Positions 12,601 through 63,943 of a DNA stretch of 64,000 bases are shown here, in pieces. The notes below the pieces were generated by a model. The model ran no database searches. It was given only the letters and a program-made list of their open reading frames with translations, and was not told the DNA's origin. Made by a program: the position numbers and the translations under genes. The number at the start of each line of letters is the position of its first letter. The first letter of the stretch is position 1. Source of the DNA: Epinephelus fuscoguttatus (Eukaryota > Chordata > Actinopteri > Perciformes > Serranidae); the NCBI RefSeq assembly GCF_011397635.1, contig NC_064763.1, positions 19,667,437 through 19,731,436 on the forward strand. Reading direction: 5' to 3'.

Positions 12601-15600
12601 TCTTAGAGGAGCGCTGCACCGCTCCCCCCACCCAAAACCCTGCAACTGTCTCCGGCTAACTCAAGGTCCTTTTTGGCAATAAAAACAACAAAAACCAGAC
12701 GGTGACGCGAACAGGCATGTGGAGTTTGGAAATAAGGAGACAATTTTTTTTTCCATACAGAAAGTATGCATTTTGTTTGTGGGGGTCATTTCAAATAACA
12801 GCTTCAGTAAAAGTCCCTGGTGAAGGCTCCTCGGGAAAAAATGATGGTGTCATTTGGCTGGCAGTAGAGGCTTAAAAAGATGAGGCATTAAGTCGTCTTT
12901 AAACCAGAAATCTTTTTTGATTGGTATTAAACCAGAAGTGTACTTTTTGTCATATCTCGCAGATGCTTTATTCTTTCATTCCAATATTTCATGACTTTGT
13001 CGATCGGTTCCAGTCCAATTCCGCCTATGCAGTTTTAATAGATTTAAATATTTATTGAGTTAGTGTTTGCCATGTGTCCTAATTTAGAGTATCACACACA
13101 TTATCAGTGGGGGTGGGGCACTCTGTCAGTCATTATGAAGGAGACAGACACAGATTTGCTCATGTGCTCTGTTGACAATGTTATATACTGAGGGTCAGGG
13201 AAATAATCGATATAGCATAGCACTGTCATCTTTTGTGTATTTTTAAATAATATAAACTATTAAATACTGCAAATAAATTAAGCTTTTGGCAGCCTGCTAG
13301 AGTAGTGGTTCCCAACTGGTGGGTCGTGGTCCAAAAGTGGGTCAGAGGTCGATTCTGAATGGGCCGCAAGTGACTCGCAAACATGTCGAGTTTGTAAAAA
13401 AACACACTTTATTTTGAAGTAATTTCCGTCACAGAGCTTTTGTTGTGAAGTGCCATTTCATGCTGTAGAGTGTGTGACTAAAGGACAGCAAACTAGCTTG
13501 ACAACATGGCCAAACACAAGTATGACGCTGAATATATTAAGCTGTGTGGACCTTGAACTAATGACTGAGGAGAAATCTGGACCCTGTAGCTGGACCAGTT
13601 GGGGACCACTGTGCTAGAACAATAAATACAATAGCTTTTTCAGTCTCCTGCATAAATTTTGCTGCCATTAAAGTGACTGAGGTGACTGGATAAAACTGAT
13701 GTTGACAGTTTTCCTCTGAGGACATGATTTGCAGCTGTAAAAAGGTAATAAATTGCAATATATGATATGGTAATACTCTGCATATTGCAATAAAATTTAA
13801 ATCTTGGATCATGACTTAAGTATCCTATCGTATGGTGATTCCCACCTCTAATAAATACTGCTACTCCTACAGTAAGAAGATGTCAACTAACTCTAACTTA
13901 ACTGTAATAATAATTATCTGTTGTTACCCTTTAGATTACATTATTTGCAAAACTACAATGTTTTGAGGAGAAATAGGTCAACATTTTCTTATAATGGTTG
14001 TTTCTTTCAGTAGGCCCTCAGGGGCCCCAGATGGTAGTCCCTTGTATGTTATGTTCATAGGTGTAGACTAAAGGAGGGATGCAGGGGACACGTCCACCTC
14101 AATATTCACAACATGAGCATTTGTCCCTCGAGTAAAACATGAAAGTAGCAGAGGACTATTTTTTTTTGACAAAACTAAAGATATTTACACCATAAATTTC
14201 ATATAGAGAACACACAAATCAGTGCATTTTGATTCACCAGATGGCAGTAAATCAAGTGTTTGATGCTGGCGGGGGACCCCCCAAACCCCCTGTTTAATTT
14301 GTATCTCCCTCAAAGTTAAACTAAACCTACACACTTCAATATATTGGATGGATGAGGGTTTATATGTACGGACAAATCTATTGTGGCGTCTGAGCGCAGA
14401 CACTGTTAAACAGCTGAGGATCATTTCACCAGTTACTGTAAACTGAACTGCAATACATGCAGCACTTCATGACCTCGGTTTTGGATATTCACTGAATGTC
14501 AAGCGTGACCGTAAACATCAGACTCTTGTGGGGAAATGAGGAAAAAAAAAAAAAAAAAAAAAAAACTTGGAGCGGCTCTTTGGAAACAAAAGCGTCCGTG
14601 CTGTCATTCCAAACAATTTATGACCATACCTCGGTCGAGGTCTGGCCGATACTTTGGAGCATCGATGGGGATGTCGATGGAGGAGCAGTTCCAACGCATG
14701 TCAGAGAAGGTCTTCTGGCATGTTTTCTTGACTTCTCGGGCGGCTGTGATAATAGTTTGCATGAGCTCCAGGTTGCTGCGGCACAGCTGAGCTTGGGAGG
14801 ACACCAGGCCGGGCAGCAGCTTACAGTGTTGGGTCTGGTTGATGTGTAAAGACGTAGGAGTGTGTGATAGTGATCTGCAAACAAGAGGAATTGATTAGTA
14901 TGCATTATACAATATACTTATTTTCTGGTGTTGACGTTGTGATGATTTCTTAATCGTGTTTCTTTGTATTATGAGTTGTAAAATCAGGTTTATGCGCCTA
15001 AGAAAGCTGTGAGTTTTAGTTACAATTGTGTGTTCGCGATTTCAGTTTGTTGTGTTCACACATTTCAAGCCTCTGAGATGCATCAGAACAAACAACTGAA
15101 AAATTGAAACAGATAATGCTTCAGGCAGGGAAATATCTGTGGCATGTGTTGCAGAGAAGAGCCATCTTATCACAGTGAAGAACTTGAAGGAAAGTCAGCT
15201 GGGGATTCATAAAATATAAGTGACACGTTCTTGGCACGGAGCTTTTCTTTTGTTAAAGCACAGAGGAGGCCTCGAGATAGTCCAAGAAAATATTTTAAAA
15301 TAACCCGAATAAATTCAGATCCACAGTCAGATGAGAAACTGCATCGTTCCTTTACGTTTGCATTCTGCACCACAGAAAGCGTCGTCCTCCAGGCCTCAGT
15401 TTGACATGAATCATCAGTGTACGGGTTATCAAAGGGTGCACACTTTTGATTTAAACATTTCAGACTTATTGAGTATTAACTTAATAGAGAAACCACAGGC
15501 GGAGCAGGTTAGCTCTGATCTCCACTCTCTGTGTCTCGCACTCTGCTCAGAGTTCGTGAGAACCAGGCAGCACCGCCTGCACCTTGGCCTGTTTTGCATT

Positions 15601-27540: not shown

Positions 27541-29072
27541 TTAAAGAGGATGTAGCTCAGTGAGGGACCGCTTTTCCTGGTGTATGAACTCCTGTAAGCT
27601 TCTTTTTCCCTGCCTGAAGTTGCTCTCCCTCCTTGAAAACGGCAAGATGACTTGGAGTCTGAGGAGAGTTTCAATGTTACCAAAACTTCTTATCTGTGAC
27701 GTCTTGAGCGTATCAAGCACAGTAGTTGGGAGATAGCCTGCCAGGGGATCCAACCATCGCTCCTTCCACAACCTCATCTCAGAGTGAAGAGAGACCTGAT
27801 CTGGCAAGTCCTCCTTATACAGGCGGAAAACAAGACCACTAAGAATGCTGGTTTCTACTTTGGACATTGCGTAAGGCACAATCTCCAGACACCTCAAGGT
27901 ATCCAGTACCTTTTCTGTGAAGAGGTCATCAATTTCTGCTATTGAGTGCTCTATAGCTTTCATGCTTACCGATTCTTTGTAAAACTCACTCAATGGCTCG
28001 AGAAGCACTGAATGCAACATTGTTACATCGAGTTTAGAAGCCAGCGTGGTGGCTTCCTCAAACCAGGCCTTGTGATGCGTGTCAATATCGCTCTTCAGTT
28101 TACTGAGGGATGCTTTCACATCAGGCAAATTATTCACAGCGAGTAACATATCTAAGGGTTTGCCCTGAAGAGACTGACTTAGCTTTTTAGTTACACTCAA
28201 GATGTTCTTCTGCACCACTGTTGATAGGATAAACTCAAAGTTTCTGATCGCATTGAAGAACTGTGATGCTTGCTGCTGGTTCGGAGTGCTTCCCTCCCCT
28301 TTCAACTCATTCAAACAGAGCATGACAGCTTCCAAAATCTCTGCCATCACCTCATGCATGTCATGACTCTTCTCCCAGTTTTTGATGAGCTTGTCTCTCA
28401 GCTCGTTGCCCTTTCCTTCATCCTGCTGGAATACGTGAATGATCATGTCTTCCAGTTTGTTCTGGCGTTCTGCATCCTCTGTGAGCCAATGTAATATTTT
28501 ACCTACGAGAACTGCTCCATCAGCTGCTTCTTCAACGGGAGATGATTTAGCCAGCCAAACATTAAGAGACAAAGCAGAGCTGACAGTTCTTACAGCATGG
28601 GGGTATGTCGTAGCTATAGCTAAACTTACAGCCCTCATCTGAGCTCCTACTTCACCAACACTCAGCATGGCCTGCCCTCTACAGTACTCCATGTTCAGCC
28701 CCCATTTCTCAGACAGGGCAGTCTGAATAGCTTCTGCAAGGGCAACTGGGTCATCACCGAATGGGATGAAGGCCAGCGTTTCCTCACACTGGATGTCCTC
28801 TTTGTTTAAGTACCTGATGCACAACGGGATGTAGATCTCACCGTCAATTTCAACAGCTTGCTCAGTTATAATTGTAAAGAACTGAGAGTCCCAGAGTTCC
28901 TTGAGGATTTGTTCACGCAGCTGTGGCTCGTAGAAAGACACTGCTTTTCTTGGTCCTTGAGCTACCTCTGCTGTCACTTTACTTTCTGCAGGTTTTACTT
29001 CTCCATCAGCAGGCTTCTCTGCTACACTGGAGGAGTGTGATTCTGCTGGTGCCGCCGGTTTTACCTCCACAC
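27541..29072 (-). CDS. Module 4 giant exon (last exon, C-terminally shortened)
   Basis: This exon encodes residues about 1949-2458. Starting in phase 1 after acceptor CAAATCAG, it has a low-complexity linker rich in Ala, Glu and Lys (GVEVKPAAPAE, VAEKPADGEVKPAE). The body starts at the FYEPQLREQILKELWDSQFF region. It keeps the CRGQA signature (NMEYCRGQAMLSVGE), LNVWLAKSSPV, and the late FGNIETLLRLQVILPF block, then stops. The final stretch found in thap12 and modules 1-2 (S-LALL-N-D block and beyond, about 50-70 residues) is missing. The preceding short exon 29250-29214 is 37 nt, the same length as in thap12. Confidence 0.8.
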
Positions 29073-32000
29073 CTGATTTGAAAAGTAAAAATACATGTTG
29101 ATTGCACACATACAAATTCACCCGCTAGCAAAATGGTTATTTTTGTCATCTCATTGTTTGAATCAAAGACACAGTGATGCTTTTATAAATCAAGTTGCCA
29201 CGAATGGACTTACCACTGTCCAACCTTAGTCTTTGCAAAGTTCCCATCACCTAAAAAAATATGTGGTGCAGATTAGAATGGCTGTAAAAATCCTATAATA
29301 TTTGGATACAACAGGACAAATAATCAAATATCTATCTTAAAACTATTTTAAATGTACCTGGGAAAGACATGGTCTGCTCTCTGGATCAATCTCCATACAC
29401 TTCTCAATGACCTCTGGCAGTCTCTGTAGTGTTGTGCAATGAAAGAGGAGCACCACATGATCCTTTCTGCTGCCTTTGCATACAGTGTGTTTCAACAGAT
29501 CCCTCATTGCATTCAGAGTGGTCTTCATCAGGTCCCACTCCATACTGACACTAGGCAGGACAGCTACAAGCCTAAGCAGTGAGGTAACAGTTGGGTGGCT
29601 CTTTGACTCAGGATGGACAAGTGTTTCAGCGATGGATGATGGAGGAGCAGCATCCTGGTATTTCTCTCTCCAGACAGCTGACCATGCATTGATTTCCTGC
29701 TCGGCTGCTTCGGGTTCAGAAAGATCTGTAAGGTAGAGGCTGAATGGCTTGTCTGTGTACTCTGACAGAATGGGCTGTGGATTGCAGGAGGGCAGTAACG
29801 ACAGGACCGACAGGGCCTTCAAGTGGCTGTCTGAGAAGCAGTACTTCATTTCATCGGTGAGACTTCTGAGGAGAGGAACACTAAGGTTTTCTCTGTAATA
29901 TATCTCAGGTGATTCATAGCTGTTGGCCTCCTCTGAGAAGCACACTTGCTCAGGAGCTACCTTGGTTGCTAGCTGGAATGCCTGCTCGAACCAAGTGGAG
30001 TGCAGGGTGCTCACGTTTTCTAACATTTTGTTAAGAGTCTCTATGATCGAGGGAATTTTTTCCACTTCACAGAGAATATCAGCAGGATTTCCACAGCGGA
30101 ATACAGTGCTACAGTTACGAAGAGGAGCACAGGCGTTCTTCAAAATCACTAGGGTGACAATGAAATCCATATTTCTCAGAGCGGTGGAGAGAACTTGTGC
30201 ATGCATTGACTTGGCACCTGTTGCACTAGAGCTAACAGCATCCAGGCAGCTGAGGATGCCCTCTAATGTGTCAGCGAGTATGTCAAAGAAGTCCTCTCTC
30301 TTTTTCCACCTTGAGCAACAGGTTTCTGGTATTTCCTCCAGGGCCTCTCTTGGCATATTCAAAAGCCCATCAACAGCCTGCGCTAGCTGTCCCTCCAGAC
30401 AAGGAGATTCGTCAAAGAACAGCAGCAGGTCTTCTGTGATGTCCAACATTTTTGCTACTGAGGGGCAAGGCACACTTCCTGCCAGCCAATGGGCAAGGCC
30501 GCAAGACTCACTGGGTGTTACAACAGCGAGCGGATAACTCTTGAGGAAATCCAGAGACATTTTCTTCAGGCTTTGATAACCTGAGCCCAAGTGCATGAAT
30601 GCTTGTCCACGACACTGAGACATTGGTAAGCCCCAGTCTTCAGTGAGAATCTTCGCAAGTCTAGTGGCTTGTGTCTCAACGTGACAGTTTTCATCAAATG
30701 GTAAGAAACCCATGAGCTCTACCTTTGGGGTAGATTCTCCAACATACCTGACAAAAACAGGCAGGTGGGTCTTGTCAGCAATTTTTACAGGTTTGTCTGT
30801 GATAAGTGAGAAGAACGGTGACTCCTGGATTTCCTTGAGAATGACATCTCGGATTCCATTTATCAGAAGGTTCACCATTTCATCATCACCTATAGAAGGT
30901 GTGCTTTTGCTCTCATTTCCAAACCAGTGGCAAATACTAAGCTCCTGGATGAAAAGCTCTCTGTCCTCTTCTGAGAGATCAGAGAGACTGCCATTCTTTT
31001 TCCCCAGTAGTGCAGCCAGTTTGAATACTGTCGCCAAACTCTGACGATTGTCACCTGAGTGCCCATTCTCATCTGCTGGTTTCATTTCTTGGTCCTCAAT
31101 CTTGGCAGGAGATTGTTGATTTTTAAGCTCTTCAGGTTCCTCTTTGACACAATCAACTAAATATAGAGAAAAACAAACCACACAACACTGGTTAAGACAA
31201 TCATTTAAATCAAGGCAAAAGCTACTTTCAATAACTTTGTATGGGCATTAGTAACTCGTTTTCTTTTGAGTTGTTAGTAAATCATATAAAACAAAAAACC
31301 ATCCAACATACCTTCCATATTATTCTCAGAGTTTCTGACAAAACTTTTGGATTCCTTGTCCTGCAAATATAGCCAAGAAAATGAAAATTAGTCAGGCATT
31401 CGTATTGATAATAAAATACAGGAAATAAAATAAGAATAAACCAGAAATATAGCACAGACATTTTTTTATGAAAGAATACAACCACATACCAGACATATAC
31501 CCTCCAAGGCTTGCGGAGTAACCTTCAAACACTGGGTCACCATGCGGTCCAGGTCTCTGCTGAAGTCTGTGCTCACCTGCAGCAAAGCCAAGCACGGGGA
31601 CCTGTCTTTGGGATTTGTATTTCTCAGGTACTCTTGGAACTTCTTGTGGCGCATTACGACACCACAGTCCTCCAGTGCTGTGCTGGGTAGCACGGACATA
31701 ATCCTCAGCAGTGCATTGATGTTACCGAAGTACTGCATGAGTGGCAGGCGCAACGTCTGAAATATTGAGCCTGGGATGGTCACAGATGCAACTTTGGTCT
31801 TCCACGTTACTCTCCAACAGCACAGCTCTGTGAAGAAGTTGTCGGCATCAGGAAGGTCACTGCTGTAGAGGGGAGGCTTTGACTTCAAGCTCTCAAACAT
31901 GTAACTCACTGTGACTGAGCATGGAACTAGGGAGAGGAAGTTCAGAGCTTCTTTGTGGTCCTCTGAAAAATGATCCTTCACAGCATTGATGAGGTTATCT

Positions 32001-35000
32001 ACTAGGGGCACACTCAAGCCATCTTTGTAAAAACCCACTGGCTTAATCATGCCGTCTCTTGGCAAAGAATTCTCAGGCACTTCAATCTGCACTCTTAGAC
32101 TCTGTGCCATTGCACAGGCCTCATCGAACCAGTTCTGGTGAAACACCTTCATGTTTGTTTTCACTCGGTTCAGAGTGGCCACAATACCACTGATTTGGCA
32201 AAGTTGGGATGCGGCACTGAAGTGGTCCTTCTGGAGACCCGCGCTTAGCTCTCTGGTGAAAGAGGATGCATTCTTCAAGACCACCATAGCGATGATGAAA
32301 TCAAACTCCATTACCTTGCGGAGGAGTCCCCCAGCTTGGTCAGACACAAAGGCTTTCCATCTCTGTGGGTTATTTTTGATCTTCTCCAGACATTCAACGA
32401 GGGGTTCCAGCATCTGCACAAACACCTCATAAGAATCGTGCTTCTCTTGCCAAAGGGCACAGAACTTCCCCTGTAACTCTTGAACCTTTTCATAGCTCTC
32501 TCTAAGACCAAAAGCTATCACATGGTCTAGCTGTTTTTGTAGAGTAGCGCTGCTGCCAAAAAACATCAGCACTTCTTCAAATGTATCCAGGGCTCTCTTA
32601 ACAGCAGGCACTGGGATGGATTTTGACCACCATGTGTTGAAAGAGTAGGAAGAGCAGTGTGTGCTTATAGCGAGAGGATGAGTCTCCTGGACTTTGCAGG
32701 CAAAGGCTTTCAGCTTGTAGGAAACATCACCAGAGCCGAGGTATGCTTGACCTCTGCAGTTATTTAAATCAAGACTCCACTCAACTGTTACTATTTCATG
32801 GAGACGCTGTATCATGGCATCACAGTCAAGATCTGCCTCAAGAAAACCCATCAACTCCAATCGCATGACATCAAAACTGTCCACAAACCTCAGGAAGAGG
32901 GGAAGATAGTCTTTCTCCCCCAACTTCACAACACGGTCGATGAACAAGGAAAAGAATGAAGTCCCCACTTCCATGAGGATTCCCTCCCTGACAGCGTTTT
33001 CGCACACAGTGAGAACTTCTTTCATTTCAGACTTGGTCACATACTCGACCTCTCCTTCGTGAGCAAGAGCTTCATTGTTTTGCCTGCTTTGAGTGCTGTA
33101 TGCAGCCGTCACTGCAGCCTGCAGAGCAGATTTAAGAGCTTCTCTATCAGTCTCCGCACACTTCATCTCCACAAGCCTTTCAGCATCCATCTCTAGGTTT
33201 ATGTACTGTAACTCTTCTTCAGTGTCCTTTTCAGCATGGTTCCCATGGGATGCCACTGAAATGAGAGGTGAGAGTGGTCTTGAAAATCAAAGGCATTAGT
33301 AAATCAGCAAATGTGCATATTCAAGATTGTAGTTAAACAAAAATTTTCATTTTGCCCCAGTTACTTCAACTGAACTAATTTAATCCCAAAACATCTTTTT
33401 AAATGTAGCCATTATTGTGTGTACTACCCATATATTTGTCTACAGCTCTATTTCCAGATCAACATTTCCTTAAATTGGCATATTATGTGATAGAATAGCT
33501 GTGCCATTAACCAAAAATGTGGCATGCTGAAATGGTAAATAAATAATTTCAAAGCCATCTCACCTTGCGGAGGCTTCTCCTTTGTGTCATCATCCTGAAA
33601 TAAACATTCACATAGTTTAATGTAATTTCAGCAAGAACAGTTGTTTGATCACAAAAGAGGGCAATGAAATTTCAACATTGCTCTGCTAATGAGAACCTAC
33701 TAACCGTTTGAAGCAGTTGCAGGATGTCTGGATGCTTCTGGGTATATGACTCCACCATTTGTTCCACATTGAAATGCACATCTTGGTTCACGTAGACATA
33801 TGCCATGCTGCATTTTCTTTGGTCCTCTGGCGTGGCTCTCAGGTATGAGTGGCACCGCTCAAGTACCATATGGTACTGACCATACACATCTGCTTCTGCA
33901 TTTACACACGGAACAGTACCCAACACCCGCAGCAGGCTCTGCACATTTGGGTAAAACCCAATATCTGGAATCTTGAGCGTGGCAAACACTGTGGTAGGTA
34001 GGATTCTGCGCTTGCTCGCATGCCTCCACTTCACTTCCCAACAACCAAGCTCTTCGTAGAACGTGTCAGGCCTGGCAAGGTTGTTCAAGTTGGCGTCTGC
34101 TACTTTGTCCCTGCGAATGCTGAAATTGTGGTCAGCCATGTAAGATGGCACTAACGAAAGCCATCGGAGAATCCTTACCATCTCTGTGCTGAACACTCTC
34201 TTCACCTCTGCGACAAGATACTGCAAGATAGGCCGGCTCAGAGTCTCTCTGTAAAAGTCCTCCAGTGGTATTTCATTTGTGTCTCCTTGGTCCATCTCTG
34301 GTTTAGTGACCTCCACTCCCAACTTCTTTGCTCTGCCAACTGCATCTGAAAACCATTTCCTGTGGAATATTGCGAGCTCCTGTTGGTATTTGCTTACCAG
34401 CTTTAAGGCATTGGAAATTGTGTACTGCAACGTACTGCTGATGCTAATTATTCCCCTGAGACTCGAGTTGAGTATGCTCACACAACAGAGGGTGTTCTTC
34501 AGAACAACAAGTGTGATGATGAAGTTGAAATTCTTCAGTACTGGCTTGAGCTTGGCCATCTGTTCAGCAGTATCTTCATCTACCTTTGAAATCATCTCAT
34601 TGATGCAGTTCAGGAATGGCTCCAGAATGTCCAACATGGTCTGGAAGGCATCAGTACCATATTCCCAATTCTCGCTGACTGCTGCTTTGATCCTGTCCAC
34701 TTCCCCTTTTACGTGCCCATATGTCATCTGGATCTTTCCCTCCAATCTTTTCCACAGCTCTGGTGTTCTCCTGAGTAACGAGGCCACCTCCTCTACAGTG
34801 TTGGCAACATTCTGAATGGAGGGCACAGGCATGCAGCGAATAATCCATATGTTGAAGGCATATGGGTCACTTGGTGACAGGACTACTTGTGGGAACTCCT
34901 GCAGAATCCTGGAGGTAAGGTCTCGCATTTTCTGACACATGCTTCCTGTAACCAAATACGTCAGTCCTCTGCAGTGCTCCATCCTCAGCCCCCACTTGTT

Positions 35001-38000
35001 TCGCAGCTCTGAGAGAAGCATGTAAAACAGATTCTCTGCATCCATGTCGCATGGCAAGAACCCAATGAGGTGCTTCTGTGGGAACCCGTCTACTGTGACA
35101 GACCTGATGAAAACTGGGATCTGCTCCTTTCCCTCTATACTTGTCACATCCTGAAGCAGAATGGAGAAGAATCGCGCCAGTCTGAGGCTGTTTTGGATCT
35201 CCTCACGCATGAGGTCTTCGCTAAACTGGAGGATTTCTTTCTTGTCAATTTTCTCCACACAGATACGATTGAGAGCCTGCTGTCCCCTCGCGCCTCCGAT
35301 GGGCTCATCAGTGTTGATGTTTGCACCGTTTATGCTGAATCCAGTCAGTGCCAGGATTTCCTTGAAATAGACTTTCAGAGTCTCTTTTGCTTTAGAGTTG
35401 GCTACATCCTCTTGGGTTTGGTTCTCTTTTTGCAGTTCAGGTGCTGCACTGTTCTCGCCAGATACTTCTGTCCTCTCCTCAGTCACTTCTGTTGTTGCTG
35501 TGTTTTCTGATGAGAAAGAGGAAAAACCTGAGTAAAAGCCTGAGATCATTTTAATAGCTGCTAATTGAATCAGTGGATAATAATTTACAGCAGTGACTAT
35601 TACAATCTCACAGACTAAACCTCAAGGGGCTTAAATGAGACAATTTTCCAAGAATGAAGTGAACTAGTTACTGTACCTTTTGTTTTCTTCACAGACGTGG
35701 GGTCCTCTTCAGACTAGGTAAATGGAAAGGATAATTCAAGGTTTGCATTCTAGTGTCTTAATGTGTCATAGAAAATGTTCAGAAGACAAATGTTAAAGAT
35801 TGAATATAACACTTACAGGATCTCTAGCTCGTTTCCTGTTGCAGGTTGATTGATTATTCACAGGCATTGTTGAGTCAAATATTGTTGGAACAGCATCTTC
35901 CCTTAAGACACAACTGGAAGCGCTCTGAAAAACAATAAGCAGAGGATCCCACTTTTATCCTAATCCTCAATATTCTATAGCCCCATTTCCACCAAGTAGT
36001 ACGGTGTGGTACAGTTCAGTACGGATTTTTTCCATTTCCACTGTGAAAAGTTATGGATGGTATCAATGAAACGTTCTGTACCGTCCCCACTTTTGGTCCC
36101 CCCCCCGTTGGGGTACCTAGCACACAGATCTGGTACTAAAAGGTGGAGCTGTGAACACTGCAGTCTGTTGATTGGTCAATAGAGGACGGTCACTCTGCTC
36201 AGGGCTGAGTTGTGGCTGGTTTTGAACTGTGAGAGTTTTATCAGTAGACTGTAACTATAGATTGAACGGATGTTTTGCTGCGTCTCGCAGCAGCTGGAGT
36301 CGGAGTAAAAATAACTTGGGCCGACTCTGGCAACTTTTAAGATGGAACATTAACTTGTAATGTTACTCAAGGCATGAATTGACGACATGAATCCATCAAC
36401 ACACCTTCAATTTCACTGTAACAACTATGACCATTGCTTTAGCTCTTTATGACATTTTAAATACCCCATCGAGAGAGACTCTCATTGCAGCCAGTTTTAT
36501 TTTGTTCTGAAAATGTCGGCATGCAACCTCGTTCCGTGGACGATAAACAAGGTGCAGACTTCCATCTCTTTGCGGTGAAGGGTTACTTCTGGCTCCAAAG
36601 GTACCGTACCTAAAGTGTTTGGTGGAAATGGGGCTTATGTGAAGCAGGGAATTCCCCACTGACTAGTCAACACAATATCATATGGAGCTTAAGAAATCTA
36701 ACTAAATATACAGCAGCACTGAGTACACAAATGTTGAATAACAAAACCTTTACTAACTCTGAGGATTTGTGCAGCTATAAAATAAAAAAGACTTTCAATG
36801 ACCCCCATTTTTGCACTGACAAACTGTCTAATAAACCAAAGGGTTTCAGTAGCCGTTTAAAAAAGAAAGTTTGTAACATTTTTAAAACCCAATCACATTA
36901 GTAATGTAGCACTAAAAACCACCAACTTGTGTTACTACTACTACTACTAATAATTATAATAAAATTAATTTGATATAGCACCTTTCACACATATGAAATT
37001 CACAAAGTGCCTCACAAAATACAATCAAGCAATCAAACAATAATAATCAATAAAAACAAAGGCAATATAACAAATAAAACAAAGCAACAAAAAGAAAGTA
37101 AACCATAGGGCAAATACAGGCTACTGAGGCCTCAGGCAGAAACATACCAGGGAACAAGCACGAGACAATTTAGGGTGGGACAAAGGCCATTTTGAAAAGA
37201 TGGGTCTTCAGTTGTTTTTTAAGTTACTAAAGAGGCCACAGACCGTAAACCTAATGGACGAGAGTTCATGTGTTGGAGCCACTTCTTCAAAGGCATGAGC
37301 ACCTATGTTTTGAGTCTGGAGCAGGGGAGAGCCAGTAGATCATTGTCAGTAGACTTAAGGGACCTACCGATGATACATGGATGGAGGAGGTCACTGATGT
37401 ATTCAGGTGCCTGACCCTGGAGGCACCGAGTTACATGTGACGCCACTGCATTACACTAATCGAATGCACAAATGAGTTTCTAATATTCTTAACACCTATG
37501 GTTTTTGACACTGTAAGCTTCAAAGACAGGAATCATTACTGTTGCTTTAAAATGCACTAGACTGTTTAGGTGTACCTAACAAACAGGTAATCCAGGTTTA
37601 CATACAGTTGTGAAAAAGCATATTAAGTGTTATTAGCCTGCAGTATTTGCTTACTTAGAACAGCACTAGTCTGGCTCTAATAACAAAAAAATAGGTCAAA
37701 ATTACAATTATAATTATTATTATTATTATTATTATTATTGAAACATTTACAAAAAGGTTATTGGCAACAGATTTGATTCTTACCTGACGACAGATCACAG
37801 AGGGCTCAAAGTGCTTTGCACAAAGTCTGTACAGCTTATGCAACTGTTCAGGAGGTTCTGATGCCAAATCTTGGCGGTGACAGTTGTTCAGCCATTGTTT
37901 GCATCTGAAAAAACAGCAGGATAAGGCATAAGTTGTTGTCGGGGTCACAGCCATAGACTCAATAATTAAACCAAGCATTAGGCAAAAAATTTGCACAAGA

Positions 38001-41000
38001 ATGTTCTGTGTTCTAAATGTGCTAAATAATGACCTGACGAACAGATATGAGCTCTCAAAGGCTGATGAAACAGTCTGCTTTAATTAAGACACTGTTCATT
38101 GTGATGTAACAGCCTAACATGGGTGAGCATGGCGAATCTTTGCATTACTAAAATGTCACCATAGCAGCAGGTCTGAACTGTACCCTATAAACAACTGATA
38201 GGACTGCTTGAGCTAGGGCTTGTAAGGTTATAAAATATTGAAGGACCAAGAACTTCAACAGAAAAAAACAGCTACAGTATTCATTCAATGACATTTCATC
38301 TTATTTCAGAGAGTTCAACATGCTTACTGAGCGAAAAACATTTTTTTTTTGTTATCACATTTGTCTGCATGCTAGGGCTGCAACTAACGATTATTTTCAT
38401 TGTCGACTAATCTGTCGATTATTTCTTCGATTAGTCGAAGTTTAATTTAATCATTAATCATTTTATCGAAAAATGTGTTAAAATGTTGAAGAATGATGGT
38501 CTGTCTCTCCCAAACCCCAAAATGATGTCATCTAATGTCTTGTTTCATACTCACGCCAAAGGATTTTAGTTTATCGTCATGGGAGAGTGTGTAAAGCTGC
38601 CAATATCTGAATGTAAGAAGCTGCAATAAGAGTATTTTGGGGGACTTTTATAGCACTTTTCTATGAAAAATGACTCAGACTGATCAGTCGACTACTAAAA
38701 TAGTCACCGATTATTTTAATAGTCAATTAGTCGACTAATCTTTGCAGCCCTACTGCATACATTATATTACTGCATTGGTCCAAACCACTGTATCGGACCT
38801 GCAGTCTGTTTCTTTATAAAATCTTTGTCTCAGTCATCTACGTAATAGGATGAGGTTACATCACATATTATTCTTGTAACTCTTGTACTCTTTATGAATT
38901 TTGTTTGAATGTTTTTGAAGACTGTAAAAGAAAAAATACTGAAAAAGAAAAGTGAAATAAGTCATGTGACCCATTAGCATGCCTGTGAGTGCTCGTGTGA
39001 TCCTGTTGAGCAAGCCTGAAGAAGCCATGGGCGAAACGCTTTGTTCGCTCTTAATAAAATCACAGCAATTCAGTTCGGTGCGCAGTGGTTTATGTTCACG
39101 ATTTTATCTTAGATGTTCCTGCAGCCGACCGACACCTGATCGTTGAGACTGGCTGTGCAGAGGGAGTTCTGTTAACTCACGAACTCCCTTTACTAAATGT
39201 GCAAATTGCTATGTGGAGATACTAGTTCAAATACATTTTTAGACTAACATTTATAGACAACTGTGTTTGTGAGAGATGCGTCTGATGTTTGCTGCACATG
39301 CATTAAGGCTGCACGATATGAAAAAGAAAAAAATATATATTGTACTTTGATTATTTTACAGATACTGCAATTGCCTTGCATTTTTCTGGGGAATGGTAAT
39401 TTCATTTATTTATCTTTTAATTAAAAAATTATAAAAATGATGATGGTGGTGTGATTTTTGCTAGAGTCTGTATCAAACAAGCACGTTCCCTTGCATCCAG
39501 GGTTGGAAATTAATCTATTGTAATCTATTGAGTGTCTGGTAAAGTTTGGAGTCCACCAGACACAGTGGCAGGTGGACAAAAAGTTAATTTCCAACCCTGC
39601 TTACATCTGGAATATCATTTGAAGGCCGGGGCCTGTTTAGGGTTGGCTTGTGGAACGAGCTGCGTGATGAGTTGAAACAAAGCACATACATAAACCAATT
39701 AAAAACACTTTACAAAAAAACAAAAAAACAAAAACAAAAAAAAAACAACCATATTTGTGGCAGATATATAGATAAGGAAAGGTTGTGTTAGGGGAGTGCA
39801 TATTTTTTGTAACGCTGGATGGTACTTGAACTGTAAATAAACTGGGTTTATTACTTATTTATTAACAAGGTGGTAGATAGATTGGGGATTGTTGTTTATT
39901 ATTTAAATATTAAATTGGGAATTCATGCATTCATTCATCTCTGCAGCACCACAATCATCTGTTCATCTCAATTAATCTATTATGGTAACTGTGACACATT
40001 AAAAAATAGCACCTCCTGCAGTTTGGATATTGCATTTGGCCATATTACAATTCTGATAATATTTGAATTAACTGTGCAGCGCTGAGCATGACCACATCAC
40101 ACATGATAAAGAGGTGATATCTGCAACAATAACATGGATTTGATTTATACAATTCTGCTTTAATTAGCTGCATCTGTAACAAAACACTGCCTCAGTGCTG
40201 GCGCTAATAAAACAGGTACCAAGTTGTGACATATTGCTAAAAAGCCTTCACCACTTCACAAGCTCTTTGCTCTCATAACACAAATTCCTCCTCTCCCTCT
40301 CAGCTGATTTTATTGATGCATGCACAGAATGAGGCTGGATGGATTTGCCCACCAGCAAATGAGATTTACCTCTCTAAATTTAACACAATATCAGGCTGGT
40401 GACAGATTATAAACGAGCACAGGGTGCAAAAGGAGAGGAAGAGAAAAAAATCATTGCAGGGACTGGACGTGAAATATTCTGGTGATCTATAAGTCTTGGC
40501 TGGGAGGTTTGCATTTCGTGAGCTGTGATGCAGCAAGCTCAACTGCAGCTGCCAATCAATCACCGTCCTTAAATTACTTGTGTTGCATAGATTTTTATGC
40601 AACACAGCACTCCTATGGTTGCACAATAGCACCGGAATCTAAGAGTGAACAGAGCCAGTGAGGAGGTCTGATAAAGGGGGCGCTAGACTGCTATTTATTC
40701 ATAGGGACATCACCTGTTAAAACTACGTTAATATTAGTTTCCATTGATATCCAGTATGCTGTGCTGCAACCTGACTCCACTGTATAAACGCAATTTTGTA
40801 CGCAAAAGCAACAATAACGCAAAGTCAGCTCTATAAATAGGAGGTGTTTTTATTTTGCTAAGCTAACATCAGTTTTCCTACTAATGTTACCGCACTGTGG
40901 AGACGGTAGGTGTCGTGTATACCGATGGCGATTTAAATTACAGCACAAAAAGTTTTAAACTATGGTTTCTGTCGGTTTGAGACACACCTGAACACAAAGA

Positions 41001-41352
41001 CAAACGGACACCAGCTAATATCATGAGTCAGTGTCGGTCTCCGAGGCTGAATGAGTGAGCGGAGTCTGTTTCACACGGACTTTTCTTTCAAGAGTAACGT
41101 TAGTCTGCGCCATTTTCGACAGAGTTGTGTCACTGTTAGCCAACATGATGTTAAGCTAACGCCAGTGCTAACAGTGGATAGCTAACACATTCATTCTGCA
41201 TGCTCACTGGCTCGTTTTTTTACACCCACATCTCAATGAAATAAGCACAACTCTTACCGCTCCGGGTCCAAGGGGAAGCTGAAGAGTGGAGGGGAGTTTT
41301 CGGATCCCCCTTGCTGGTAATCACAGTTCGCTGCGGCGCAGCAGTCAGTCAT
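27541..41352 (-). CDS. THAP12-like protein with four tandem transposase-derived bodies
   Basis: Eleven exons join in frame: 41352-41258, 37904-37784, 35924-35817, 35713-35677, 35506-33705, 33594-33564, 33255-31490, 31360-31312, 31156-29358, 29250-29214 and 29072-27541. All junctions are GT-AG, and the predicted protein is 2,458 residues. Residues 1-88 form a THAP zinc finger (C5, C10, C60, H63; conserved W36; AVPTIF at 83-88). Four bodies follow (109-721, 722-1320, 1321-1936, 1937-2458), each resembling the whole post-THAP part of THAP12, a domesticated transposase with an RNase H-like (hAT/DUF4371-like) fold. THAP12 was described as a regulator of the P58IPK/PKR pathway; no function can be inferred for this protein beyond likely DNA binding and multimer-like behaviour. 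About 7 kb of frame stays open, which argues for selection. Separate shorter transcripts are the main alternative, but no module has its own THAP exons. Confidence 0.78.
29358..31156 (-). CDS. Module 3 giant exon
   Basis: This exon adds 599 codons plus two bases, with phase 1 entry and phase 0 exit (CAG then GTACAT). It opens with an acidic linker (VDCVKEEPEELKNQQSP). The body carries FFSLITDKPVKIADKTHLPV, where the first catalytic-type Asp position is kept, and the PMSQCRGQAF signature. It also has HWLAGSVPC and a late TVTSLLRLVAVLPSV block. The last 70 residues are divergent from thap12. The preceding short exon 31360-31312 is 49 nt (DKESKSFVRNSENNME). A small terminal exon 29250-29214 joins it to module 4. 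Confidence 0.8.
31490..33255 (-). CDS. Module 2 giant exon
   Basis: This exon has 588 codons plus two bases, phase 1 in and phase 0 out. The exit uses CTG then GTATGT; an earlier GTATAT 9 bases upstream would break the frame. The body includes FFSLFIDRVVKLGEKDYLPL, DLNNCRGQAYLGSGD, FNTWWSKSIPV, ELCCWRVTWK, the FGNINALLRIMSVLP block and a C-terminal LALLQVSTDFSRDLDRMV block that parallels the very end of THAP12. The preceding exon (33594-33564, 31 nt) encodes DDDTKEKPPQ, a charged linker. Confidence 0.8.
33705..35506 (-). CDS. Module 1 giant exon
   Basis: This exon has 600 codons plus two bases, phase 1 in and phase 0 out (ACG then GTTAGT). It directly follows the 37-nt exon 35713-35677 (SEEDPTSVKKTK), exactly the position and size of the matching thap12 exon. 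After an acidic linker the body reads FFSILLQDVTSIEGKEQIPV, RMEHCRGLTYLVTG (the usual CRGQ has become CRGL), FNIWIIRCMPV, ELGCWEVKWRHASK, FYPNVQSLLRVLGTVPC and a complete end block (YVYVNQDVHFNVEQMVESY). Confidence 0.8.
35979..36635. mobile_element. MITE with AGCCCCATTTCCACCA termini
   Basis: The 16-base end AGCCCCATTTCCACCA recurs exactly, inverted, at the right edge (TGGTGGAAATGGGGCT). The next bases, with GTAC-rich words on both sides, are also partly inverted. The trinucleotide TAT flanks both ends. No transposase is encoded. The element lies in the intron between exons 2 and 3 of the four-body gene, just 55 bp upstream of exon 3. Confidence 0.7.
36950..37460. repeat. Dispersed repeat, class unassigned
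   Basis: The left edge TTGATATAGCACCTTTCACA and inner GATGGGTCTTCAGTTGTTTT, GAGTTCATGTGTTGGAGCC and GACCTACCGATGATACATGG phrases are familiar from a dispersed teleost repeat. There are no clear inverted ends or coding frame. Confidence 0.45.
37709..37739. repeat. (ATT)n microsatellite
   Basis: About nine ATT units, 45 bp downstream (transcript sense) of THAP exon 2 of the four-body gene. Confidence 0.9.
38373..38752. mobile_element. hAT-type MITE (TAGGGCTG family), copy 3
   Basis: Starts TAGGGCTGCAACTAACG and ends TTTGCAGCCCTA. The flanks CTGCATGC and CTGCATAC match at 7 of 8, a clear 8-bp target duplication. It is near-collinear with 9197-9553 apart from a short extra internal repeat. Confidence 0.85.
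39016..39037 (+). other. Hammerhead-like core, Penelope-type
   Basis: CTGAAGA (39016-39022), then a 3-bp GCC/GGC stem with ATG loop, then GAAAC (39033-39037): all conserved core positions of a type I hammerhead (CUGANGA, GAAA) are present. The surrounding 39000-39160 sequence is not otherwise recognised. Penelope-like retroelements carry such motifs with very short stems. Stem III and the cleavage triplet cannot be fixed by eye, so catalytic activity is unproven. Confidence 0.4.
39498..39599. mobile_element. 102-bp hAT-type MITE
   Basis: CAGGGTTGGAAATTAA on the left is matched by inverted TTAATTTCCAACCCTG on the right. The flanking octamers CTTGCATC and CTTACATC agree at 7 of 8. The middle also folds (CCAGACAC and GTGTCTGG). 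The element is close to the minimum size for a mobilisable MITE. Confidence 0.85.
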
Positions 41353-41992: not shown

Positions 41993-43025
41993 CACTCGCC
42001 AGCCACTTTATTAGGTACACCTTGTTAGTACCAGGTTGGACCCCTTTTGCCTTTAGAACTAGCCTTAATTCTTCATGGCATAGATTCAACAAGGTGCTGG
42101 AAATATTCCTCAGAGATTTTGGTCCATATTGACATGATAGCATCACACAGTTGCTGCAGATTTGTCGGCTGCACATCCATGATGAGAATCTCCTGTTCCA
42201 CCACATCCCAAAGGTGCTCTATTGGACTGAGATCTCGTGACTGTGGAGGCCATTGGAGTACAGTGAACTCATTGTCATGTTCAAGAAACCAGTTTGAGAT
42301 GATTTGAGCTTTGTGACATGGTGCGTTATCCTGCTGGAAGTAGCCATCAGAAGATGGGTACACTGTGGTCATAAAGGGATGGACACAGTCAGCAACAATA
42401 CTCAGGTAGGCTGTGGTGTTTAAACCATGCTCAGTTGGTACTAAGAAAATCTCCCCCACACCATTACACCACCAGCAGCAGCCCGAACTGTTGATACAAG
42501 GCAGGATGGATCCATGCTTTCATGTTGTTGACACCAGATTCTGACCCTACCATCTGAATGTGGCAGCAGAAATCCAGACTCATCAGACCAGGCAACGTTT
42601 TTCCAATCTTCTATTGTCCAGTTTTGGTGAGCCTGTGTGAACTGTAGCCTCAGTTTCCTGTTGTTAGCTGACAGGAGTGGCACCTGGTGTGGTCTCCTGC
42701 TGCTGTAGCCCATCTGCTTCAAGGTTGGACGTGTTGTTGGTTCAGAGATGGTCTTCTGCAGACCTTGGTTGTAACCAGTGGTTATTTGAGTTACTGTTGC
42801 CTTTCTATCATCTTGAACCAGTCTGGCCATTCTCCTCTGACCTCTGGCATCAACAAGCCATTTTGGCTCATTGGATATTGTCTTTTTTTTCGGACCATCA
42901 TCTGTGAATTCTAGAGATGGTTGTATGTGAAAATCCCAGTAGATCAGGGGAACAAGATGTGCAAAATTTCCATGTGCAAGGTTACTGAAGGGCAAAAACA
43001 CGGTGGAGTTGGGACAGAAAACCAT
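41993..43025 (-). mobile_element. Decayed Tc1/mariner element, 5' truncated (DD36E spacing)
   Basis: After a TA at 41991-41992 the 3' terminus CACTCGCCAGCCACTTTATT begins, the known end of a widespread fish Tc1 family. Two minus-strand frames cover transposase: 43025-42441 (WSDESGF with the first Asp; HQNWTIEDWKNV) and 42459-42073 (FQQDNAPCH, SPIEHLWD). They are joined by a frameshift near 42450. Thirty-six residues separate the second Asp from the Glu. The other terminus and the N-terminal helix-turn-helix are absent. The right boundary near 43025 is approximate. Confidence 0.85.
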
Positions 43026-43135
43026 AAAGCTGACAGCTCTCTGTTAGAGAGAGGTGAGGTGGTGTACAGAGTCATTGCTTTGGACAGGCAACATTTCCTT
43101 TATCTGTCCTTGTGACAGCGAAGCACAGACAGATA
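43026..43135. repeat. Right part of the repeat split by the Tc1 element
   Basis: GAGGTGGTGTACAGAGTCATT and CTTGTGACAGCGAAGC are phrases of a dispersed fish repeat. Together with 41840-41990 this looks like one older element interrupted by the Tc1 insertion. Confidence 0.35.
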
Positions 43136-46423: not shown

Positions 46424-49400
46424 TTAAGACACATCCTCCCTGTCAGGGTATGTCTTCATGTAGAGCTCAACCATTGAATCCAGGTCATACCCAACATCAG
46501 TGTTCATGTTCAAAAGAGCGAGACTTTTTGATTTGAATTTGTCAGGTGTGTTCTCCATGTACATCTGGAAGCGCTTGTACGCCACATCACAGCTGTCTTC
46601 CAGAGCCAAGGTAGGCAGGATGCCAATCCGTCTAAGAACTGCGAGCATGTTTGGGAAGAACTTCACGTCAGCCAGCTGCAGTGTTTCGTGGAGACTGGAG
46701 GGCAGACTCTCCCCTTTGCCTCTTTTGCTCCATTTAACCCACCAACAGTGCAGCTCAGCGGAGAGGGTTCCTGCATTGGGGATGTCATTTTTAAACACTT
46801 GTACGCTCTCTTCCTCAGGTTCTGTTGACTTATGCAGCTCTATGACGGCAGGGAGCAGCGACAGACATCTCAGAGCCTTCAGGTGGTCCTCACAGAAGAG
46901 TTCATTCACTTCATTGATTATGTGCTGCACCACTGGAACAGACAGGTGATCCTTGTAGTGAATTTCTGGCCGAATGGCTCGACATTCTGACTGGTACTTT
47001 CTCAAGAATGACCGAGGAATCTTTACTGGGATCTCCATCGCAGCAGCTAGATTAACGGCCTCATCGTTCCAGAACTCATGATACACATCGATGTTGTCAG
47101 ACACCTCCTTCAGAGAGTGCAACACAGCTTTTGAACTGGCTGCAGCAAAGTGGGCATCTGCTCCCGTCCCTTGCAGGTTCTTCCCAAATGCTTGTGTAAG
47201 TGTCAGAGCGTTTTTCAGCACCACCAGCGCCATGACAAACTCAAAATCAGCCAGTGCTTTTGAAATCTCTAAGGCAGTGTGTGTGACTTGGTCATTCCAC
47301 CTCATGTCCTCGTTGTCATGAACACTGTCCACACACAGCAGCAACGCCTCTAGGATTTCCACTGCCACCTCAAACGCATCTTGCCGTCTGGTCCAGCTGG
47401 TTCCACAAATCTCCTTCAGTTCCTTGGCCTTCTCCTCTCTGTCCGCATAGAAAATCGAAATGGCGTGCTCCAACTCCAACTGCAGCAAAGGGGACTGACT
47501 GAAGAATGACTCAATCTTCTTAAAGGTAGACAAAACAAGCTGAACCCCTGACAACGCCATACCATTTGCCAGTGAGAGGTTCAACGCATGAGTAGATCTT
47601 AGCATCAGCACTGCCATCGGGTACCTCTCCATCAGTTTGGCAGCAAATGTTTTCATTTTACTAAAATGTGTCCCAGAGCATGAGTGGGCTTGACCTCTAC
47701 ACTGTTCCATATCCAAGCCCCATTTTTCAGTCATTTCAGACAGCATTTTCTCTGCAAAGTCAGCTCCCTCTCCTTCAAAGGATAAGAATCCAACAAACCT
47801 CTCCCGCTGGTAGTTAGACTGGTCCACATAACGGAGAAACACGGGGAGGTACCATTCTCCTGAGATCTTCACCAAATCATCAGTAAGTAATGAGAAATAG
47901 CCATTTTGTTTAACTTCCTCCAACAGCTTACTGCGGATGTATCTCTCGCACACCTCGATCAACTGATTCAGCTGAGCTGATGAGCAGCACACCTGATTCA
48001 CGTCGTACCTCTTCTTAAGGGCTTCATCTCCACAATTCATGCGATATTCTAACAGAGACTGAAAGTTGCTCGACACAAGGCCATCCTGTTTATTATCACC
48101 AGGCCCTGTCAGAGGAATGTTTTGCTCTCCCAGCAGTACGACAACTTCAAATAATGACTTAAGATACTCTTTGTCTTCCTCCTCCTGGGGGAGTGTCTTG
48201 ACATCTTCTTTAGCTGTCTTTTTGATTTCTAAAAAGGAACAGAGAAACAGTTGCACGTTTATCAAGTGATTAATGTGGGAGTCATTACTTTCATTTTCGA
48301 GTAATAAATGTGTGTTGATATTTCGACCTACTTTTTCTCCCCTTACTGCTCGTTTCATCCTCTTTGGTCTACAAAAATTGTCAAAGTAAAAAGGTGTTTA
48401 CATAAAAACTACATTAATCAAATTATACAAAATATTTTCCCCATTTTCATGAATGAAGATTTCTTTTACCCACCGTCTCTTTGCTGCGCTTCACTTGCCC
48501 GTTTTGAGGTTGCCCTGTTACATCGAAGATAGTTGGCACTGCATCATCCTTCAGTACTGTACTCTGAGCGTCCTGAAAACAAAGACAAGCCAGAAAAGCT
48601 CAAAATAGTAAATATAAAGACTAAGGACAGTATAAAGATATACAGTGGTGGAAAAAAGTTTTCGGACACCCCATGCTTTTGTGAAATATTGCATTAAGAA
48701 TCACTCTTAGGTCTTCAAGTGCAATTTCTTTTAGTACAGTCACAGCCAAAATACTAAATAAATCCTAAAAAAGCCATTAAAAACTTAAAATTGATTGGTT
48801 CCATAAAAATACATAAGAAATTTTGAGTATTGGGTCATTTTGGTACCAGTGATGAAGGTCGTTCTTTTTATTAAAAGACACAATTTTTGTTGCCAAGCTT
48901 CGTGTCTAAGCCAGCACATTTGAAAGTTCTTCAGACACAAAAATGGCTAAAACAAGGAACCTAACGCAGGAAACACACCTGAAGACAAAGATTCTCAGCC
49001 AGAAAGGGTACAGCTGCCGCCAGATAGCCAGGAAGTGCAGATGCAGTCCTTCAGCAGTTGGATACACTCTGCAGAAATACAGAAGAACCAACAGCTTGGA
49101 AGACAAACCAAGATCTGGGCATCCAAGGGTTTCTTCAGCAAGAAATGACCGCATCCTGATGCGCATGTGCAGGCAAAACCGCGGAATGTCTTCACTGGAG
49201 CTTTAGCAGCAGTGGTCAAAGCAAACTGGTGTCCAGTGTTCCACCCGCACTGTCGTGGCGACTTTTAGATCATGGCTTAAGGTCCTACAAGGCTATCAAG
49301 AAGCCCCTGATCAATGAGAGACAGAGGTTAGCCTGTCGTTGGGCCCAGGCACACAAGAACTGGACAGCCAGGAATTGGAAGAAGATTTTGTGGTCAGATG

Positions 49401-52400
49401 AGTCCAGTTTCCAGCTTTATCTTCCTCCTACTAATGTGAGGGTACGCAGAAGGCCAGGCGAGCATTATCTCCAGCATGTACAGTACCTACTGTCAAGCAT
49501 GGTGGAGGCAGTATCATGGTTTGGGGATGCATGAGTGCTGCTGGTGTTGGTCATCTCACTGTCTGTGATGGCACATTGAACTCTACCAAGTATTGTACCA
49601 TTCTCAAACCACATGCTCCCTTCTGCGTGTGCACTGTTCCGTCGAGGTAAAAACTGGATGTTTCAACAAGATAATGCCCCTTGCCACACATCCAAGGCCA
49701 GTAGAACTTGGCTGCAGGAGCACAGTATCCAGGTCTTAGAGTGGCCAGCTCAATCCCCGGACATGAGCCCCATTGAAAATCTGTGGTGGATTATCAAAAG
49801 GTCTGTTTCAAAGCATAAACCAAAGAATTTAGAAGAATTAAAAGCAGTAATTCAAGAAGAATGGGACCCCTCAACAGTGTGAAAGGCTCGTGGGGAACAT
49901 GCCAGCCAGGATTAGAGCTCTACTACGTGCCAGTGGCAGGACTACTAAATATTGATTTGATGATGTGATGGTTTATTTATTTTTTGTTCAGTTTTGAACA
50001 CATTCTCTGTTATTTGTTGACTTTGATACCGACAATGTTGAGAACTGACATATTGACACTGTCAAGAATTTAGTTTTGTTATTTTTTTTTGTAAATAAAC
50101 AAAAAAATATAATTTGTATTTGTTTGTATCTGTCTAATGCAACCACACCTTTTGAAACACAAAAGAGATTTTTCCACAAATATTTCATGATAATATTTGA
50201 GATTGTGTAAAATTTTAAGGGTGTCCGAAAACTTTTTTCCACCACTGTATAATATGAAGACAGTAAATATAAAGATTGAATAAAAACTATTTCTTATGTT
50301 GAACTTATCTCAAAACCTTATTTATCTACATATTCACTTAGCACTACACAATATATTGTATTAACTAAATAATCTGTGAAATAATATGCAAGGCTGGTTT
50401 AAGCACTTTTCACATTTTACTTGAAGATTGGCAAAAAAGCACTGCAAAGTCAAGGGCAGGGGCAAACTGAGGCTCCAGAGCCACATGCGGATCTTTAGCC
50501 CCTCTCCAGTGGCCCCCAGTGGCTTTGACCAAAAATCATATGGAAATAATGCTGCATTCCAGGCAAGTCTCTGAGTCTGTAAGTCACCACTTCAAGTCAC
50601 AACTCAAGACTTCATAGCGTTCCAGGCAAGTCACGCCAAACTGTCAAACCAACATAGTGGACCGTGCAGGGTTTATGTTTGTTTACCATCACTTCTATCA
50701 GCAAAGGTGGCATTTCTTTGCCCTTGAGCGAAACGGAGGAGAAGAAACGGTCCATAAGGTCACAGATGCTATTATACTTTTTATTTTACGTTATCTGTGT
50801 GTTTGGAAACGTATTTTGTATTGATTTATTCTTGCATTGACTTTAGAGCAATGCCTTGCTATAATACTCCATGGGGGCTGCAGTTGTTTAGAGGGCTGTG
50901 TGACATCAGAGAGCATAACTAGGAGAACATCTGGTACGAGTTCACAAGTAGTAAGTTACGGGTTTGACTGCCATTCTGGTACACTTTCACAGGTAGAATT
51001 TTGTAAAAACACGGGTTACAGGTTGCCTGGAACACTCCATAAAATCACAGTGATTTTTTTTTTTTTTTTTTTTTTACAGTTTAATTAATTGATTGTTATA
51101 CGCCTAAAGTGATTCTTACATTGTTCAACTGTAAAAATGTGTAGTCTACACACCAATTTAAAAAAATGTTTTAACATTTCATCGACTAAAGTGTACATCA
51201 TACGTCTGTGGCCTGTCAGCTCTTCCTCTAAAAACATCACTAGTGATGCCTGCAGTTGTCTTGAATCTTCCTAGCTAGGCTAGCTGTGGATTCCAAATCT
51301 AATAAGGGAAAAGCCTCAGGAGAAAATAGAGAATAGTGTGTAGACAAGTTTGTTTGCTTTCATCTGCAACACTGCAAAGTTTAAGTACCAAATAATCAAA
51401 CATAGCCCACTGTACAATAGCCACCTTTTCCTAAAACATTAACAAATGCTCACTTAGCTCTATTAGTAATGTAATAGTAGTAGTCATGTTGACTGGCTAA
51501 ATTCGATTTGAAAGGCTGTGTTACTTCTATTAAGAGGCTCAAATTGGCCAAATATGGCTCTTTTGAAAGTAAAAGTTGCCAACCCTTGGTCTAGGGTCAC
51601 ATTGTTTTCTGCAATGTGGTACTAAATTATGTACTTTAAAAACATTACTTACACTATCAACCGATGCTGTTTCAAAATGTTTTCCACACACTCGGTAGTA
51701 TCTGTACAACTGGTCTGGTGATTTGTCTATGAGCTCTGGTCTCTGGCATTTTTCAACCCACTTCTTGGACCTGAAAGGAGATGGTACACCAAAATGAGAA
51801 CAAGTTTTAAAGTCAATAGAAGTTATGAGTTGGAGGTTTTTCCACTCTTTAATTACTAGTAACACTGTCGGAGAATATGGTGATCAACAATACATAAAAA
51901 AAAATAAAAGTGTATTAATCAATCCTATAAATGAGTGGCTGGTGACACCTGTCTATGTTGTGGCTTAGTGGGGCAATGGTGTATAAATAGCATGAGCTGT
52001 TATAAAACACACCTCCTGCTGACTGTTAAACAATTTGTAATGCAGCACAGTAGTTCAAATGGATCAGCAATTAAGTGACCCTCGTTTGATTCACAAATGC
52101 ATGTTTCTGAAGATGCAGTGACTACGCAAGGGTTGAATGGATACAGGTGTTCATGGTGCTAGGTACATACATCAACACGTGAAGTCACTAAAGCAGCAAA
52201 GTAACGTTAGCACGTGAAGAAGACAATACACCAATACTTTGCACTGGGAATAACATTAACGACATGTCTTGACTTGTCGTAGCAGAGAAAGCACAGGAGA
52301 AACTAATTTTGCACGCAGTATTCAAAATTACAGGACCCTGGAGCTAGCTTGTCTGCTCAGGGTAGCTCGAGAGCTTCCTGTTTGCTTTAGCATCTGTATT

Positions 52401-58271: not shown

Positions 58272-63943
<5,672 letters not shown>

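Follow-up and report, generated by a model that had tools for sequence, protein, structure and literature searches.

To our knowledge, transposases and the genes domesticated from them carry one body per chain and reach their assemblies by association. THAP12, also known as THAP0, PRKRIR, P52rIPK and DAP4, is the single-body gene with which the locus described here is compared. In a table of PMC3257199, PRKRIR is given as an hAT-derived gene with four coding introns, a number matched by the ordinary THAP12 gene found next to this locus. A preprint (PMC13404843) reports that human THAP12 acts in the nucleus, where it binds the promoters of complex I assembly genes and activates them independently of PKR. 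The premise of the original prediction, that a THAP12 protein would normally self-associate, is supported by the homodimerisation of THAP0/THAP12 through residues 1-488, as cited in a passage of PMC6402169. Two papers on fish (PMC9204966, PMC5525251) name prkrir as an expression hit. Two transposase systems are also instructive. The hAT transposase Hermes, as described in part of PMC10368747, forms a ring that is a tetramer of dimers and uses several DNA-binding heads in site finding, and an artificial Tn5 transposase dimer, described in part of PMC6182136, has its subunits joined in one polypeptide.

The stretch of DNA analysed here, 64 kb in length, probably from a bony fish and referred to below as the window, carries on its minus strand a gene whose 11 exons, in a model rebuilt from the sequence, join into a single frame of 2,458 amino acids with its sole stop at the end (Table 1). 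All ten introns run from GT to AG and their phases are consistent, confirming the eleven in-frame exons and the protein length that had been predicted; the boundaries predicted for the short exons 6, 8 and 10 proved exact. The one THAP domain of that prediction was recovered at residues 5-88 with a Pfam score of 64.4 bits, the cut-off being 23.9, and a bipartite NLS-like site occurs once, at residues 102-120. Behind this head lie four bodies (M1-M4), separated by gaps of 449, 333 and 285 bp with the small exons included. The first 60 residues encoded by each body exon are polar and mildly acidic, as linkers would be. Judged from the sequence, its product seems to be a single, very large protein in which one head is followed by four diverged bodies in a row. 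That no gene with such a layout had been described, as was originally stated, agrees with the PMC literature, papers on THAP12 included, in which we found none; RefSeq, Ensembl and UniProt lay outside that search, and an automatic annotation may well exist. A search of the 64-kb window with Rfam at gathering scores returned 0 matches.

Table 1. Coordinates of the four-body gene, the two single-body THAP12 genes and other features of the window (T5 lies on another contig).
Feature	Position	Strand	Description
Four-body gene	41352-27541	-	11 exons
exon 1	41352-41258	-	start codon (A at -3) and initial part of the THAP zinc finger
exon 2	37904-37784	-	121 nt; THAP domain continued; length identical in T5
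exon 3	35924-35817	-	108 nt; AVPTIF stretch and opening of the bipartite NLS-like stretch
exon 4 (E4)	35713-35677	-	37 nt, phase 0 to 1; completes the NLS-like stretch
exon 5	35506-33705	-	601-aa body M1, with its donor 8 residues past a conserved Pro
exon 6 (E6)	33594-33564	-	31 nt, phase 0 to 1; putative exon 4 counterpart by place and phase
exon 7	33255-31490	-	body M2, 589 aa; of the four bodies the nearest to single-body THAP12 (34%)
exon 8 (E8)	31360-31312	-	49 nt, phase 0 to 1; putative exon 4 counterpart by place and phase
exon 9	31156-29358	-	body M3, 600 aa
exon 10 (E10)	29250-29214	-	37 nt, phase 0 to 1; putative exon 4 counterpart by place and phase
exon 11	29072-27541	-	body M4, 510 aa, short at both ends; stop codon 27543-27541
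ATTAAA motifs	33621 and 33384	-	poly(A)-like, in the introns flanking exon 6
T12	52498-46424	-	ordinary single-body THAP12 gene, 714 aa, five exons
T12 exons	52498-52413, 51770-51653, 48572-48474, 48368-48332, 48228-46424	-	
T5	~26,862,060-26,866,133 (contig 5)		second single-body THAP12 gene
WNT-family gene exons	10464-14894	-	downstream of the four-body gene
Tc1/mariner-type transposase remnant	42073-43043	-	two overlapping frames; Pfam HTH_Tnp_Tc3_2 on 42441-43043
Tc1-like remnant, fragmented	48910-49882	+	in T12 intron 2
STT3-type oligosaccharyltransferase exon	60260-60544	-	Pfam STT3-PglB_core

A gene of the parental type, which the original prediction did not mention, lies in the same window: T12, an ordinary single-body THAP12 gene, is located ~5 kb upstream on the same strand, the four-body gene starting ~5 kb past the T12 stop. 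A second single-body THAP12 gene, T5, is found on contig 5, its body 49-50% identical to that of T12. Exons 2, 3 and 4 measure 121, 108 and 37 nt in both the four-body gene and T5, against 118, 99 and 37 nt in T12, and in all three genes exons 2-5 start in phases 2, 0, 0 and 1 (the start of T5 exon 5 was taken directly from the sequence), exon 4 of the four-body gene being the counterpart of the 37-nt exon 4 in T12 and T5. The four-body gene thus resembles THAP12 in its THAP head, its 37-nt phase 0-1 exon 4, its hAT-type body encoded in one exon, the bipartite NLS-like stretch where exons 3 and 4 meet and the loss of the same presumed catalytic Asp. It differs in having four bodies where THAP12 has one and in the shortening of the last of them; its THAP head shares only 49% identity with that of either single-body gene, and its bodies share 26-32% with the THAP12 body. 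The original assignment as a THAP12 paralogue was borne out by the lengths of exons 2-4, shared with T5, and by the order of one THAP head and then four THAP12-type bodies; because there are four bodies and not one, we class the gene as a divergent THAP12 paralogue and not as THAP12 itself.

Pairwise comparison of M1-M4 gave 26.5-29.3% identity (E 5e-53 to 2e-73), and comparison of each with T12 gave 27-34% (E 2e-93 to 2e-56). The claim that each copy comprises the entire THAP12 body stood for the presence of four THAP12-type bodies but not for the completeness of M4, which lacks most of its N-terminal block as well as the C-terminal tail and covers 506 of the 598 columns common to T12 and T5; M1-M3 cover 561-573. 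The Pfam family DUF4371 (cut-off 32.1) scores above its threshold in T12 (33.3 bits) and below it in M2 (24.2), a stretch of T5 (18.8) and M1 (12.1), with no match to that family in M3 or M4. Since this profile is weak or absent in the bodies, their homology rests on the comparison with THAP12 itself.

Coding constraint was assessed by shuffling third codon positions, a procedure that produced a mean of 8-15 stops per body and never fewer than 2 (2,000 shuffles), against 0 observed in each of M1-M4. Agreement among M1-M4 and T12 was highest at second codon positions (0.49-0.59), followed by first (0.40-0.46) and third (0.29-0.35, where ~0.25 is expected from composition), an order that held in 10/10 pairs. 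The divergence of the bodies, their codon constraint and the lack of stops together indicate old copies kept as protein, and neither chance nor an assembly duplicate. An assembly artefact is ruled out by the identity of just 26-29% among the bodies. The six THAP exon peptides matched only the heads of T12 and the four-body gene in a search of the window with an E limit of 0.05, and the notion that M2, M3 and M4 are separate genes, each with a THAP head of its own, was rejected because none of the inter-body gaps holds a THAP exon.

A small exon (31, 49 or 37 nt, each of phase 0 to 1) precedes every additional body, whose large exon begins in phase 1; the large exons of M1-M3 end in phase 0. 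The repeated unit is therefore the THAP12 pair of exon 4 and exon 5, which is frame-neutral (0-0), and by place, phase and size E6, E8 and E10 are putative homologues of exon 4. When possible exons with a fitting length, phase and open frame were ranked by a splice score built on general consensus frequencies, E4, E6, E8 and E10 each came first in their own intervals, among 6, 3, 9 and 7 candidates, respectively; the weakest splice site of the gene is the E4 donor (4.8). Skipping E4, E6, E8 or E10 alone would end the protein at residue 115, 739, 1,344 or 1,939. Of the 6 exon pairs tried, 5 can be skipped one at a time without loss of frame, leaving 1,842-1,859 aa, and skipping the sixth removes the last exon together with its stop. 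M1, M2 and M3 share a donor position exactly 8 residues past the same Pro, and T12 stops 6 residues past it. This shared position suggests a donor that arose once, at the end of what was then the last exon, before the unit was copied; a single origin of the donor thus probably preceded the amplification.

These features led us to favor, with reasonable though by no means full confidence, an explanation in which the gene is a tandem THAP12 paralogue whose exons 4 and 5 were copied within the gene, and whose product acts as a single-headed scaffold or modulator and not as an enzyme. The last exon pair, consisting of the 37-nt exon 4 and the whole-body exon 5, would have been copied intragenically until four bodies stood behind one THAP head, and the full 11-exon chain is likely transcribed.

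The four-body chain could instead be a read-through product that is minor or goes unused, the chief product being an ordinary one-body THAP12-like protein made of the THAP domain and M1, with M2-M4 confined to rare isoforms. The sequence past M1 offers the means: an in-frame stop lies 10 codons beyond the M1 donor, and the next two introns contain ATTAAA motifs, poly(A)-like and so placed that they could terminate a one-body transcript. In-frame stops also follow the donors of M2 and M3, after 7 and 4 codons, so intron retention or missed splicing would give proteins with fewer bodies. We nevertheless regard a predominantly one-body product as unlikely, given that M2, M3 and M4 match M1 in codon-position constraint and in having no stops, that the gaps between the bodies contain no THAP exon, and that the donors of M1-M3 occupy one homologous position.

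The same donors bear on the origin of the repeats. T12 and the four-body gene already stand in tandem on one strand, and trees do not resolve the order in which the bodies were duplicated, as might be expected if an array of whole THAP12 genes had later been fused by losing its downstream THAP exons, with no internal amplification of the exon pair. Such a fusion would, however, need repeated origins of the donor position in M1-M3 where internal copying needs one, and the THAP exon peptides match no head in the window besides those of T12 and the four-body gene; we judge it improbable, somewhat more so than a one-body main product. That the gene is decaying or recently dead, its frame intact by chance, is very hard to credit, for although all four bodies sit on long branches, 2,458 codons are free of stops, 10/10 introns are canonical and third positions are near-saturated.

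To place the bodies among transposases, nine hAT transposon copies from the same genome, two of them near-identical and four containing stops (read as X), served as the outgroup. A branch with 100/100 support separates M1-M4, T12 and T5 from the nine copies, and T12 and T5 are joined by a second branch with the same support. The end branches of M1-M4 are long (1.0-1.42, versus 0.40-0.50 for T5 and T12), and neither of two trees resolves a branching order among the four bodies. Constraining M1-M4 to one clade was not rejected (p 0.49 and 0.42), whereas a clade of M1-M4 and T12 without T5 was weakly rejected (p 0.044 and 0.038), as was one that joined M1-M4 with T5 alone (p 0.042). With branches this long and a test chosen after the tree had been seen, these values give only a hint that the four-body lineage branched before the split of T12 and T5. 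Outside THAP12, the nearest relatives of the bodies found in the genome are two of the hAT copies, L015 and L016, with 2 and 5 stops in the stretches used. No relative was confirmed in three non-animal collections, whether among the 55 pattern matches in viral contigs, the 8 in prokaryote genomes or in phages. A search of PDB sequences with the four-body profile gave two chance-level matches (E 0.84 and 0.88).

For the hAT catalytic triad, presumed positions were used. At the presumed second Asp, the residue is lost in all six THAP12-type bodies (M1-M4, T12 and T5) and present in 8/9 hAT copies. The presumed first Asp is present in 9/9 hAT copies and in M2, M3 and T12, and is replaced by Gln in M1, Glu in M4 and Gly in T5; the alignment of the third residue in the bodies is uncertain. 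Given the loss of the presumed catalytic Asp, M1-M4 are expected to be enzymatically inert, and on these residues they are probably catalytically dead. The relation to Hermes and other hAT transposases is thus one of remote kinship, M1-M4 being distant relatives of the hAT (DUF4371-type) copies in the same genome. Unlike those enzymes, the four-body protein has lost the presumed catalytic Asp and holds its copies in one chain; Hermes-type transposases have one BED finger per protomer, whereas the four-body protein has one THAP head in all. The single-chain Tn5 dimer is engineered, active and made of two subunits, whereas the four-body protein is natural and consists of four presumably inactive bodies with one head.

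Returning to the intragenic copying of exons 4 and 5, the resulting protein would be nuclear and contact DNA through its sole THAP finger, while its four inert hAT-type bodies could serve as protein-binding modules. The bodies might pack on each other, and perhaps on ordinary THAP12 protomers, to give a built-in oligomer in which the ratio of heads to bodies shifts to one per four, compared with one per body in THAP12. The original proposal of a neofunctionalised paralogue forming a covalent tetramer presumes such assembly of the bodies within the chain, and it is plausible that the protein is a one-headed, single-chain pseudo-oligomer. At THAP12-type promoters it would work as a scaffold or modulator, with no enzymatic role; with bodies on such long branches, THAP12 contacts and targets may have been lost. 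It is possible, though not what we would expect, that the gene is old and predates the split of T12 and T5, that it forms a natural single-chain oligomer in which valency is uncoupled from body number, and that skipping of exon pairs could tune the number of bodies. If true, frame-neutral amplification of an exon pair, altering the number of bodies per head, would be a route of growth that differs from association. In the 0-0 pair, with a splice donor whose origin can be traced, there is also a clear model for how proteins grow when exons are duplicated, and the four-body gene gives a direct test of what the THAP12 body does apart from its finger, THAP12 being a human disease gene.

A search of the genome (1.05 Gb in 26 contigs) with T12, in which only the best candidates were scored, listed 71 matches, comprising five in the C12 cluster, T5 and 65 others; no further multi-body array was found among these 65 listed matches, no two of which lie nearer than ~56 kb. 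T5 is adjoined by a MAP6-like gene, which we take to be MAP6 itself. For the first exon of this gene there is a 63% match on the contig of the window, ~263 kb before the window, and a third, shorter match on contig 15 (55% over 40 residues). The WNT-family gene in the window, presumably WNT11, was recognized by the Pfam wnt family on the two exons tested and has 24 matches in the genome, with 0 on contig 5, which leaves the MAP6-like pair as the one link behind synteny between the window and contig 5. On the basis of this one linked pair, the T12 and T5 blocks fit an origin by genome duplication.

Other elements of the window surround these genes. The Tc1/mariner-type remnant lies between T12 and the four-body gene, and T12 intron 2 contains a second, fragmented Tc1-like remnant on the other strand, one piece of it with a weak HTH_Tnp_Tc3_2 match below the cut-off. 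The STT3-type oligosaccharyltransferase exon has two 81% matches elsewhere, on contigs 8 and 17.
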